Origin: Bacteroidota bacterium
Lineage (GTDB): Bacteria; Bacteroidota; Bacteroidia; UBA4408
Direction of reading: 5' to 3'
DNA: 64,000 nt
Assembly (NCBI GenBank): GCA_963169745.1
Contig: CAUJCU010000002.1
Location: 186,001-250,000, forward strand
How positions within the stretch are numbered: the first letter of the stretch is position 1; each line of letters starts with the position of its first letter. Below the pieces are notes generated by a model, which saw only the letters and a program-made list of their open reading frames with translations, made no database searches and was not told the DNA's origin. A program made the position numbers and the translations under genes. Positions 36,481 to 41,952 of the stretch are shown one piece after another.

Positions 36481-39400
36481 TTATTGATAGTTAGCCGAGT
36501 CGGCTAGTTTGTTTTTCAGTTCCTCGATGCGTTTCTCCTTAAAAGGCTGCCTTCTGCGTTTATTGGTTTCGGTAAAATATTGATGATTCTCAAGGAAAGG
36601 AACTTGTATTTCATCCCATTCTTTATTGGTTTTTATTTTTCCAAAAGCCATGAGTTCTTTTTTTAAGGAGTCTGAAATTTCATAAAAATCTTCACGTCCT
36701 AAATAGTCTAAGTCTGCATCACACATTATCATCTCTAAATGGGTTTTTGGTCTTTGAGGCATTTCAGTGGCCATAATAATTTTACTAATAACCCCAATTT
36801 GGTGCTCTGAGTATCCGTATTTAGGCAATATTTCGTGCGCATACGCTACGCCAATGCATTCGTTTTTTGTGTACTCTTTGGTAAACCCTGAATCATGAAA
36901 TAAAGCTGCAGTTTTCAGTAAAAATAAGTCTTCGCCTTCTACGCCTTCTAACCGGGCTATTTCTTCTGCTGCATTTGTTACATCAATAGTATGATGTATT
37001 CCGTGATAATAAAGGTTTTCCGGCAATCGTTCAGAAAGTAATTTCAGTACCCTCATTTCTGATTTTTTATAGCTGAATTTATCCAGTAAAAGCTTATTAA
37101 AAAGTTCATCAAAAATTTCATTCGGCACAATTCCTTCGTTATCTTTTGAGAGTTTAGGTTTAATCCGATCTACAAAGTACATTTCAATTTCGCCTTTGTT
37201 TTTAGCTGCAATTTTTCCACGATAAGTGCAATCAAAAAAATCCTTAACGTGATCGTAAGTAGCTTTGGTAATATTCACTCTTCCGGCCTCTCCACTGCTT
37301 TCTGTTCGGCTTGCGGTATTTACGGTATCGCCCCAAATATCAAAAGCAAATTTTGTTTTGCCAATAACCCCGGCAATAATTTCACCTGTATTAATGCCTA
37401 TACGTAATTTCCAAGTATATGTTTTTCCATCTATATCAATACTTGCATTCTTCATAAAATGTTGAATTTCAAGAGCCGTTAATACAGCTTCGATAGGATT
37501 ACTCTTGTTTCGAATTGGAATTCCTCCGGCACACATATATGAATCACCAATGGTTTTAATACGCTCCATATTATATTTTCCGGAAATCTCATCAAATTTG
37601 GTAAAGTACTTATTGAGTTCATCTACTAATTGCTGTGGTCTTAGCTTTTCGGCAATTTTGGTAAACCCTTCAAAATCGGTAAAAACCACCGTACACAAAC
37701 TGTAGTTACGGGGTTTAGAAAAGCCCTTGTTCATAAGCTCTTCAGCCGTTTCCTTTGGCAAAATACTTAATACTAAGCTTTCTGTTCTTTTTTTCTGTTC
37801 CTCTATAATGGCCTTTTGAGACTCTATTTCTCCCTTTTGCTTGAGTACGGTGGTTGTTCGTTCTTTTATTTGATTCTCAAGAAAATTTCGCTGTTTGACA
37901 ATGCGGTATTCTCTTTGTTTATAATAATAAAAAATCACACTCACCAAGGCTAAAAGAAATAGTCCTCTAAACCACCAGGTTTTCCAGAAAGGAGGAGTAA
38001 TGATAATCTTAATCATGGCAGGTTGTTTACTCCATACTCCATCAGAGTTTGAGCCTAACACTTTAAAAGTATATTCGCCTGGTTCTAAATTGGTGTAATA
38101 TGCCTGATTTTGCGTGCCTACATAATTCCACTCTTCATCTATGCCCTCCATCATATATTTAAACTCGTTGTTTTCGGGGGCAGAAAAATGTAATGCGGCA
38201 AATTCAAATGAAAAAAAATTTTGTTTGTAAGAGAGTACTATTTCTTTGGTAAAAGAAATACTTTTTCGAAGCAGTTTACTCTGGAGTACATTTATAGGTT
38301 TGTTAAATATTTTAAGTGCTGTAATAACAACATTAGGGGCAATGGTGTCATTTATGATTTGGTTTGAAAAAAATGCATTCATGCCGTCAACACCGCCAAA
38401 AAACATTTCTCCTTCTGATGATTTAAAAGAAGCTCCACTGTTAAACTCATTACTTTGCAGTCCATCGTTTTCATAATATGAAGTAACTGTGCTATCGCTC
38501 AGTTTAATCTTTATTAATCCATTATTGGTACTGCACCAAAGCACATCCGAACTTTCGGGCAATATGCTGTAAATGGTACTTTCGCTTAATCCTTTAAATG
38601 TATTCAAACGGTTTACCTTTCCATTCAAAGTATTTAATTCATTTAATCCGCTTCCGTATGTGCCTACCCACAAATAACCCTTTTTGGTTTGGGCTATACT
38701 TAAAATATTATTAGAACTCAGAGAAATATCGCTATTCAAATCGGAAAGAAACTTTACAAAATAAGCCTTGTTTGTAATGCCTTTCGTTTCTTTATAAAAA
38801 TCAATTTTATTTATTCCTCCTCCAAAAGTTCCCAGCCACATGTTTCCGTCCATATCTTCCTGTATAGCTCGCACATCATTATTTGAAAGTGAATTTATTG
38901 CATTGTTATTCGTATAAAAATCGGCACTTCCATCGGATAATACGATACTAAAAAGGCCTTCTTTAGTTCCAATCCACAAGGTACTATCTGATGCTATTTT
39001 TAAGGATAAAATAAATTTTTCACGCAGTTGATTATGCCATGTTTCTTTTATTTTATAGGGTATAATATGGTGCTCTCGTATATTATATTCAAACAATCCT
39101 TTTTCGGTTCCAATAAGTAAAATTTGTGATGTTAGTTTTTGAATACATGTTACAGAAAGGCTTACTTGGGGCTCTTTATTTGGTATTTTTATCGTAAAAT
39201 TAGTTCCGTTTTCTCTATTTAGAACAGTTAACCCGGCATCGGTACCAATATAGAGGGTGTTGTTCGCAACATCGTCATAAATACTCCACACGTTGTTGGT
39301 ATGACTCTTTAACCCAAAATTAGTGCGGGGTGTTAGAAGTTTAAATTTATTTTGTAAACGGTCAAACTTATTTATTCCGGCTTCTGTTCCTACCCACATC

Positions 39401-40407
39401 GTTCCGGTCATATCTTCATATATACAGTTTACTTTATTTCCACTAATCCCCTTTCGATTATCTGGTGAAAACTGAAATTTAGCAAAATTTCCGGTTTTTG
39501 TGTTGTATTTAAGAAGCCCTCCATAAGTGGCTAACCAAAATGCTCCCGATTTATCTTTAAATATTTCTTTAATAAAATTATTCGTTATTCCATTTCGTTT
39601 TCCCGGATCGTACTTGATGTTTGAAAGTTTTCCAGAGTTTCTATGAAATATGTTTAAACCATTATCTGTGCCCAACCATAATATAGAATCATTAATTTCT
39701 TGGATTGAGAAAATTGAATTATTGTAGAAATTATCTTTTTGCTCCTTAAACAAGTGCTGTAGTTTTTTTTCGGAAATGGTGTATTTCAAAAGTCCCTTGT
39801 TATTAGTTCCTATCCAAAGTACACCACTTTTGTCGGCATATAAACATTGTATAATGCTTTGTGTAAAAAGACTGTTAAACTCCAGTTCAATTAATTTAGG
39901 AGCTTTATCATTAAGTTTTATTTGAAAAAGGCCGGTACCACCCGAAGCCGTGTATAAGACGTTTTGATATACATAAACAAGGGTAAAACGTTGCTTTAGT
40001 TCGCTACCTGAATGACTATGAATAAAATGTGTAAACCGTTCTGTTTCGGGATTAAATTTGTTTAATCCGTTTTCTGTTGCAATCCATAAATTTCCATCTT
40101 CATCAACGGCTAAATCATTAATATAATTATTTGAAACCGTATTACTGTCTTTAGGATTTGTTTTATAACTTTTAAAGTGATACCCGTCAAACTTATTTAA
40201 ACCATCTTGAGTACCAAACCATATAAAACCTTGTTTATCCTGAACAATGCAGTTTACAAAACTTTGTGACAAGCCATCACGAAGGCCATAATAATCAAAA
40301 CTAAAGTTGTTGTCTTGTGCTTTGGCATTAGAAGTGATGAAAGCTAACCCAAATGCAACAAGGCCAATTACGGTATATATTACATTTCTTTTCAAGAAAT
40401 AAAACAA
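36481..40407 (-). CDS. Propeller-sensor adenylate cyclase with HD hydrolase domain
   Basis: A 1308-residue membrane protein. Order: signal peptide (1-31, ending AKAQ); a double set of Reg_prop beta-propeller repeats (about 40-690, repeated IWFGTQDGLNKFD-like units); Y_Y_Y domain (about 715-805); one membrane span (about 812-832); coiled coil (about 835-880); class III nucleotide cyclase (about 900-1085); HD domain (about 1130-1250). Metal Asp residues are in FTDFEGFT and TIGDSYM. Lys in RIKTIGD and Asp in FDIWGD are the ATP-selecting pair, so cAMP is the likely product. HD ligands are in HHTIDV, FHDSGF and CDADLD. The start is TTG, 3 nt after an acyl-CoA carboxylase gene. Confidence 0.88.
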   Translation of the reverse strand: MFYFLKRNVIYTVIGLVAFGLAFITSNAKAQDNNFSFDYYGLRDGLSQSFVNCIVQDKQGFIWFGTQDGLNKFDGYHFKSYKTNPKDSNTVSNNYINDLAVDEDGNLWIATENGLNKFNPETERFTHFIHSHSGSELKQRFTLVYVYQNVLYTASGGTGLFQIKLNDKAPKLIELEFNSLFTQSIIQCLYADKSGVLWIGTNNKGLLKYTISEKKLQHLFKEQKDNFYNNSIFSIQEINDSILWLGTDNGLNIFHRNSGKLSNIKYDPGKRNGITNNFIKEIFKDKSGAFWLATYGGLLKYNTKTGNFAKFQFSPDNRKGISGNKVNCIYEDMTGTMWVGTEAGINKFDRLQNKFKLLTPRTNFGLKSHTNNVWSIYDDVANNTLYIGTDAGLTVLNRENGTNFTIKIPNKEPQVSLSVTCIQKLTSQILLIGTEKGLFEYNIREHHIIPYKIKETWHNQLREKFILSLKIASDSTLWIGTKEGLFSIVLSDGSADFYTNNNAINSLSNNDVRAIQEDMDGNMWLGTFGGGINKIDFYKETKGITNKAYFVKFLSDLNSDISLSSNNILSIAQTKKGYLWVGTYGSGLNELNTLNGKVNRLNTFKGLSESTIYSILPESSDVLWCSTNNGLIKIKLSDSTVTSYYENDGLQSNEFNSGASFKSSEGEMFFGGVDGMNAFFSNQIINDTIAPNVVITALKIFNKPINVLQSKLLRKSISFTKEIVLSYKQNFFSFEFAALHFSAPENNEFKYMMEGIDEEWNYVGTQNQAYYTNLEPGEYTFKVLGSNSDGVWSKQPAMIKIIITPPFWKTWWFRGLFLLALVSVIFYYYKQREYRIVKQRNFLENQIKERTTTVLKQKGEIESQKAIIEEQKKRTESLVLSILPKETAEELMNKGFSKPRNYSLCTVVFTDFEGFTKIAEKLRPQQLVDELNKYFTKFDEISGKYNMERIKTIGDSYMCAGGIPIRNKSNPIEAVLTALEIQHFMKNASIDIDGKTYTWKLRIGINTGEIIAGVIGKTKFAFDIWGDTVNTASRTESSGEAGRVNITKATYDHVKDFFDCTYRGKIAAKNKGEIEMYFVDRIKPKLSKDNEGIVPNEIFDELFNKLLLDKFSYKKSEMRVLKLLSERLPENLYYHGIHHTIDVTNAAEEIARLEGVEGEDLFLLKTAALFHDSGFTKEYTKNECIGVAYAHEILPKYGYSEHQIGVISKIIMATEMPQRPKTHLEMIMCDADLDYLGREDFYEISDSLKKELMAFGKIKTNKEWDEIQVPFLENHQYFTETNKRRRQPFKEKRIEELKNKLADSANYQ

Positions 40408-40410
40408 GCG

Positions 40411-41952
40411 TTATAGTGGAATATTTCCATGCTTTTTTCGTGGCATATTATCCACCTTATTCTCTAGCATTTTAAAAGCAATAATTAGTTTCTCTCGTGT
40501 ATCTTCAGGAATAATAACCTCATCCACATAACCCCTTTCGGCTGCCCGATATGGATTGGCGAAATGTTCTATATACTCTGTTTCTTTCTCTTTTAACTTG
40601 GATACAGGATCTGCGGCTGCTGCTATTTCTGATTTAAAAATTATTTCGGCTGCCCCTTTTGCCCCCATCACTGCTATTTCGGCTGTAGGCCATGCATAGT
40701 TCATATCAGCCCCAATATGTTTGCTGTTCATAACATCATAAGCACCTCCATAAGCCTTTCTGGTAATCACAGTGATGCGAGGCACAGTAGCTTCACAAAA
40801 AGCATATAGTAATTTTGCACCGTTATTAATAATACCATTCCATTCTTGATCTGTGCCGGGTAAAAATCCAGGAACGTCTTCGAACACAAGCAGTGGAATA
40901 TTAAATGAATCGCAGAAACGCACGAAACGTGCTGCTTTGTTTGATGATTTTATATCTAAAACCCCAGCTAAAAAGGCAGGTTGATTGGCAACTATTCCAA
41001 TGCTTTTTCCTCCTAGTCGGGCAAAGCCAACCACAATATTCTCAGCATAATTTTTATGCACTTCTAAAAATGTTCCCATATCAATAACTTCTTCAATAAT
41101 CTCACGCATATCATAAGGTTTATTGGCATTTTCGGGAATCATATTATTTAATTTCGGGCGCTTCTCATTACCCGGTTCATAAGTGCTATGTGGAGCTGTT
41201 TCTTCGCAATTTTGAGGTAAATAACTGAGTAAATCTTTAATATTCTTAATACATTCCAACTCATTTGCACATGAAAAATGGGTTACTCCTGATTTGGTAC
41301 TGTGTGTTGAAGCTCCTCCAAGTTCTTCGCTGCTTACTTCTTCGTGTGTTACCGTTTTTACTACGTTGGGGCCGGTTACAAACATATATGAAGTTTGCTC
41401 TACCATCATAATAAAATCGGTAATAGCAGGTGAATACACGGCACCTCCTGCACAAGGCCCCATAATTGCTGAAATTTGCGGAACAACCCCAGAAGCTCGT
41501 GTGTTTCTGTAAAAAATATCAGCATAGCCTCCTAAAGATACCACCCCTTCCTGAATTCGCGCTCCCCCACTATCGTTCAGCCCTATTACAGGGGCTCCAT
41601 TCTGCATTGCTAAATCCATAATACGGCAAATTTTTTCGGCATGGGTTTCGCTTAATGAGCCCCCAAAAACAGTGAAATCTTGCGAAAAAACATATACTAA
41701 GCGGCCATTAATAGTGCCAAAACCTGTTATTACGCCATCGCCTAAGTACTTTTCACGTTCCAACCCAAATTCAGTAGATCGATGTGTTACCATCATACCA
41801 ATTTCTTGAAAGGAGCCCTCATCCAGTAAAAAATGCAATCGTTCGCGAGCAGTTAGTTTTCCCTTTTTATGTTGAGAGTTTATTCGTGCTTCACCTCCTC
41901 CTAACAGGGCTTGTTTTGTTTTTTGCTGAAGTATATCAATATATTTTGTCAT
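40411..41952 (-). CDS. Acyl-CoA carboxylase beta (carboxyltransferase) subunit
   Basis: A 513-residue biotin-dependent carboxyltransferase, most like propionyl-CoA carboxylase beta. The N-terminal carboxyltransferase domain holds [20 protein letters not shown] and [12 protein letters not shown] (acyl-CoA oxyanion hole). The C-terminal domain holds [12 protein letters not shown] and [13 protein letters not shown], with the second oxyanion hole and biotin site. No biotin carboxylase gene is in the window. The promoter is strong and the next gene downstream, 3 nt away, is the cyclase sensor. Confidence 0.93.

Follow-up and report, generated by a model that had tools for sequence, protein, structure and literature searches.

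Can one membrane receptor carry out both the synthesis and the breakdown of a cyclic nucleotide? The question is raised by a minus-strand gene at positions 36481–40407 of the window, the whole 64,000-nucleotide stretch of Bacteroidota DNA analyzed here, in which the sequence-only reading had described a signal peptide, Reg_prop propellers, a Y_Y_Y domain, one membrane span, a coiled coil, a class III cyclase, and an HD domain in one polypeptide. The open reading frame runs for 1308 amino acids from a presumed TTG start codon with no internal stop, and a Pfam scan gives Reg_prop (seven stretches, 8.6e-49), Y_Y_Y, Guanylate_cyc, and HD, in that order. The described layout is thus borne out by the reading frame and the Pfam matches, with the span placed by its position. 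From the N terminus, and with all coordinates on the minus strand, a clear hydrophobic stretch in sequence and hydropathy marks the signal peptide (residues about 1–31; 40315–40407) and is followed by the periplasmic propellers (about 32–735; 38203–40314) and the Y_Y_Y domain (741–803; 37999–38187; 1.8e-18). The predicted membrane span (about 813–829; 37921–37971; LFLLALVSVIFYYY) lies below the Kyte–Doolittle cut-off of 1.6 and is called from its place after a PFWxTWWFR motif (here PFWKTWWFR). It leads into a coiled-coil or cyclase transducer segment (about 832–890; 37738–37914), recognized from the sequence and modeled by AF2 as a long helix, the cyclase domain (900–1079; 37171–37710), a linker with a conserved PN..F in the alignment (1080–1124; 37036–37170), and the HD domain (about 1125–1300; 36508–37035). 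A carboxylase β-subunit gene (40411–41952, same strand) lies 3 bp upstream; as this neighbor is conserved only inside the genus, no functional link through an operon is claimed.

The sensor half, with its propeller repeats followed by Y_Y_Y, is homologous to the hybrid two-component sensor domain of PDB 4a2l (E 2e-106). The hybrid two-component Reg_prop–Y_Y_Y sensors of Bacteroidota (PDB 4a2l, 3v9f, 3ott) share this homologous periplasmic sensor and the single membrane span, but their output is a histidine kinase, whereas that of the fusion protein is a cyclase plus an HD hydrolase. The Pfam scan of the 1308-residue protein detected no histidine kinase or receiver domain, so it is not a hybrid two-component system. 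A protein of the same genus (L056) has the same sensor and cyclase layout, Reg_prop–Y_Y_Y–class III cyclase, but lacks the HD domain, which is therefore an addition that the sensor–cyclase pair does not require.

The cyclase domain matches the Pfam Guanylate_cyc model over residues 900–1079 with 167.5 bits against a curated cut-off of 21.9 (3.2e-49), and is homologous to the adenylate cyclases 5o5k, 8buz, and others. Its modeled fold matches known class III cyclases, including the bacterial adenylate cyclase 5o5k/5o5l, with Z about 27 at 1.3–2.5 Å. Alignment identifies the metal-binding D911 (FTDF) and D955 (IGD), the ATP-selecting pair K951/D1023, and the transition-state residues N1030 and R1034. 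Across 88 fusions, K951, D955, and N1030 are each present in all 88, D911 in 85, D1023 in 86 (Glu in the other two), and R1034 in 81. The domain score and the catalytic residues indicate a class III adenylate cyclase, and the K/D pair, of the class IIIa ATP type, suggests that ATP is the substrate. The fusion gene encodes the only class III cyclase (Guanylate_cyc gene) in the window's own genome. The same genome encodes six cNMP_binding proteins (L037–L042), in none of which (0 of 6) was the canonical Glu/Arg cAMP cassette seen by eye; one of them (L038) has the FGE with Pro in place of Arg.

The HD domain is matched by Pfam over residues 1137–1232, with 2.2e-4 in the full protein and 1.6e-5 for the domain alone (25.6 bits against a cut-off of 22). 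Alignment places H1139, H1171-D1172, and D1230 as the H…HD…D metal ligands of an HD superfamily hydrolase; together with both cyclase metal Asp residues and the Lys/Asp ATP pair, every residue picked out by the sequence-only reading is present. That reading had also recognized that it would fail if close homologs lacked the HD metal ligands, and these are intact in 88 of 88 fusions. H1135, H1139, H1171, D1172, E1183, T1214, P1217, D1230, D1232, and H1275 are all invariant in this set.

To place the protein in its family, one genome per species was scanned (84,980 species), giving at least 492 relatives. The best 80 of these are all cyclase–HD fusions that match from the cyclase end through the HD domain, although, being the nearest to the query, they give no frequency for the fusion; open frames of at least 1190 residues occur in 53 of them, and about 50 share the layout of roughly 1300 residues. 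A fusion of about 1298 residues is encoded by the cultured species Brumimicrobium salinarum (L156). In the full-length members scanned (36 loci and the window), Reg_prop and Guanylate_cyc were each detected in 37/37, far beyond chance, and Y_Y_Y in 36/37. An order-level search of eight genomes from five genera gave a match in every genome: six other genomes of the order contain the whole cyclase–HD query in a single match (55–83% identity), and one, 71% complete, contains cyclases without the fusion. Chance or misassembly is ruled out by the orthologs, which are present in each of the order's five genera and in dozens of other genomes. The sequence-only reading had called the layout new; no paper on a bacterial cyclase–HD fusion was found in the literature searched, but the layout belongs to a widespread, conserved Bacteroidota family and is not a singular invention. 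No plasmid record searched had one place covering 80% of the cyclase and HD domains.

Upstream of the conserved cyclase–HD unit the sensor can be replaced: by TPR in one relative (L081), by an unassigned sensor with a weak Y_Y_Y in three (L128, L136, L146), and by little beyond a membrane span in Marinifilum flexuosum (L150), whose fusion has no propeller sensor. A protein of 1866 residues (L069) has the order protein kinase–AAA ATPase–GAF–class III cyclase–HD. In a tree of HD domains the cyclase-fusion label has to change twice, and L069 falls among stand-alone forms (100/98 and 96/78), away from the 38 other cyclase fusions. The tree indicates that the cyclase–HD fusion arose at least twice and that L069 is an independent fusion.

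Of 395 Bacteroidota genomes sampled, 133 encode relatives of the HD domain. Their noncyclase forms comprise stand-alone proteins of about 200 residues as well as fusions with PycTM, with TPR modules, or with a membrane part resembling YitT. The window's own genome has no member of this HD family besides the fusion HD. A class III cyclase is present in 43 of 48 genomes with a stand-alone HD protein and in 162 of 347 others (odds ratio 9.8, p 6e-9, with HD forms sorted by frame length and the kinship of genomes ignored in p). A cyclase gene lies within about 6 kb at 9 of 40 stand-alone HD loci, against 0.45 expected, the nominal adjacency p being too small because some of the 40 loci come from related genomes; at one locus (L160) two cyclase genes in tandem immediately precede the HD gene. 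In genomes of different families (L161, L165, L168, L172, L198), class III cyclases of about 350 residues are encoded within a few kilobases of stand-alone HD genes. The repeated joining of cyclase and HD domains points to a metabolite common to both, most plainly cAMP.

HD domains of this family are also joined to the Pycsar effector PycTM, and the ligand of PycTM is a cyclic mononucleotide. These HD–PycTM proteins, in which the HD is joined to a membrane effector and not to a cyclase, might be self-limiting effectors. They are about 400 residues long (L070–L073, L076, L077, L079; Pfam-confirmed in L072) and common in Bacteroidota, at about one per genome; proteins of HD–PycTM length showed no significant co-occurrence with class III cyclases in the sampled Bacteroidota genomes (p 0.07). 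Other architectures recognized by eye are a TIR-like N terminus with a FlgO-like/TPR part and the family HD at the C terminus (L067, L068), and the family HD fused to a YitT-like multispan membrane protein (L011, L021/L180).

We lean cautiously toward a self-limiting receptor, one that would make cAMP through its cyclase and hydrolyze it through its HD domain. Starting from the layout, the intact residues, and their conservation, we infer the following sequence of events. The periplasmic propeller/Y_Y_Y part would bind a ligand, probably a polymer fragment by analogy with the hybrid two-component sensors, and the signal from the ligand-bound propellers would cross the membrane span and coiled coil to a cyclase dimer. 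The dimeric class III adenylate cyclase would turn ATP into cAMP, and the C-terminal HD domain would hydrolyze the cyclase's own 3′,5′-cyclic nucleotide to the monophosphate. With the two activities coupled in this way, the output would be a brief, local, or ligand-set cAMP level; the ligand may shift the balance, or the HD domain may merely limit spread.

In a fold search with the AF2 model of the HD domain, built, like that of the cyclase plus HD, on alignments of relatives (mean pLDDT 93.6 and 89.7, respectively), the best matches were PDE10A (Z 17.4; 196 residues, 2.9 Å), PDE7A (16.9), YpgQ (16.8), and 2pq7 (16.4). The modeled fold thus fits class I phosphodiesterases and nucleotide hydrolases equally well, PDE10A and YpgQ being tied, and is compatible with a phosphodiesterase without being specific for one. 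Because the PDE and YpgQ matches tie, a cyclic nucleotide as the HD substrate is something that we infer. No PDEase_I (PF00233) match appeared in the fusion protein up to E 5; one relative (L068) has a weak one (0.049). A sequence-profile search against solved structures placed 2pq7 first (2e-4) and PDE9A at E about 0.5. The HD domain may thus hydrolyze another nucleotide, either as an NTP/dNTP pyrophosphohydrolase like YpgQ or by acting on a linear product, so clearing the cyclase's substrate or product and not cAMP. We consider this unlikely, although it draws on the fold tie with YpgQ and on the closest sequence match, 2pq7, a predicted HD hydrolase whose DADRLDAIG motif resembles the DADLDYLG of the fusion HD. 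Bacillus subtilis YpgQ and 2pq7 both have an HD fold of equal size, with the DAD.LD..G-like motif in 2pq7, but YpgQ is a stand-alone nucleotide hydrolase, unlike the cyclase-fused HD. The HNxxxH motif was discarded as proof of a class I phosphodiesterase because H(D/N)xxxH is superfamily-wide in the alignments; not being PDE-specific, it suits another nucleotide hydrolase as well. Against such an activity, the HD is coupled repeatedly and specifically to class III cyclases and PycTM, and not to other nucleotide enzymes.

A different doubt arises at residue 1182 (36862–36864), just before the invariant E1183: 79 of the 88 fusions have Asn at 1182 and nine have His, as compared with His in 51 of 51 nonfused HD relatives. 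As N1182 replaces the His of the nonfused relatives, the HD chemistry may be altered in most fusions, and the domain might bind a nucleotide without hydrolyzing it and exert allosteric (feedback) control over the cyclase. Precedent comes from EAL and HD domains that are inactive but regulatory, yet metal ligands invariant in 88/88 would be unusual for a dead domain, and we find this explanation rather improbable. It is very improbable that the cyclase makes a cyclic nucleotide other than cAMP (cGMP or, on the Pycsar pattern, cUMP/cCMP) in a possibly defense-related system. The cyclase does give a weak match to PADLOC PycC models (2.3e-10, 38 bits), and fusions of the HD family to PycTM exist, but the score against the generic Guanylate_cyc model is much greater (167 bits), the ATP-type K/D pair is nearly invariant, and the secreted-sensor layout suits environmental sensing. 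A Pycsar or defense assignment was dropped, as the PycC match is weak and no PycTM gene was seen by eye among the neighbors. For the self-limiting receptor, the proposal that one protein may combine synthesis and breakdown of a cyclic nucleotide gains from the conservation of the cyclase and HD active sites across 88 fusions, the two independent fusions, and the adjacency and co-occurrence of stand-alone HD proteins with cyclases. The six cNMP_binding proteins without a canonical cassette and the nonsignificant co-occurrence of HD–PycTM-length proteins with cyclases count against it, and the substrate of the HD domain is where it stays conditional, given the tie between the phosphodiesterase and nucleotide hydrolase folds.

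The closest known parallel is CAPE of streptophytes, a class III cyclase and a class I phosphodiesterase in one membrane-associated chain, for which cyclase activity has been shown and phosphodiesterase activity assayed (PMC5159850, PMC8115329). The fusion, known here from its sequence, likewise has a class III cyclase and an HD-superfamily phosphodiesterase candidate in one membrane-associated chain, but in CAPE the phosphodiesterase is N-terminal and a genuine class I enzyme, and the protein has two membrane helices, is eukaryotic, and lacks the propeller sensor. Set against the CAPE pairing of class III cyclase with class I phosphodiesterase, the cyclase is present, and the HD is C-terminal and is not PDEase_I by sequence. 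By analogy, and with no homology of the whole, the fusion receptor is best read as a bacterial counterpart of plant CAPE. GGDEF–EAL and GGDEF–HD-GYP proteins likewise pair the synthesis and breakdown of a single messenger within one polypeptide, but the messenger is c-di-GMP, and the GGDEF cyclase and EAL are unrelated to the domains of the fusion. In the literature searched, which comprised non-subscription papers, no paper on a bacterial cyclase–HD fusion was found; as far as could be searched, the parts are well known and their coupling is undescribed in bacteria.

To our knowledge, cAMP signaling in Bacteroidota is little described, and here the genome's only class III cyclase sits on a glycan-type sensor and carries a likely off-switch of its own. 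As a tentative proposal, held with less than even confidence, the HD domain may found an unrecognized bacterial cyclic mononucleotide phosphodiesterase family, widespread in Bacteroidota in stand-alone, cyclase-fused, and PycTM-fused forms, that turns off cAMP signals and, perhaps, those of the Pycsar type, with the fusion receptor as its bifunctional, ligand-set form. If the HD domain does hydrolyze cyclic nucleotides, it would represent a new bacterial phosphodiesterase family, explain hundreds of unannotated proteins, provide a connection to the HD–PycTM proteins, and make the fusion a receptor-controlled maker and breaker of cAMP.
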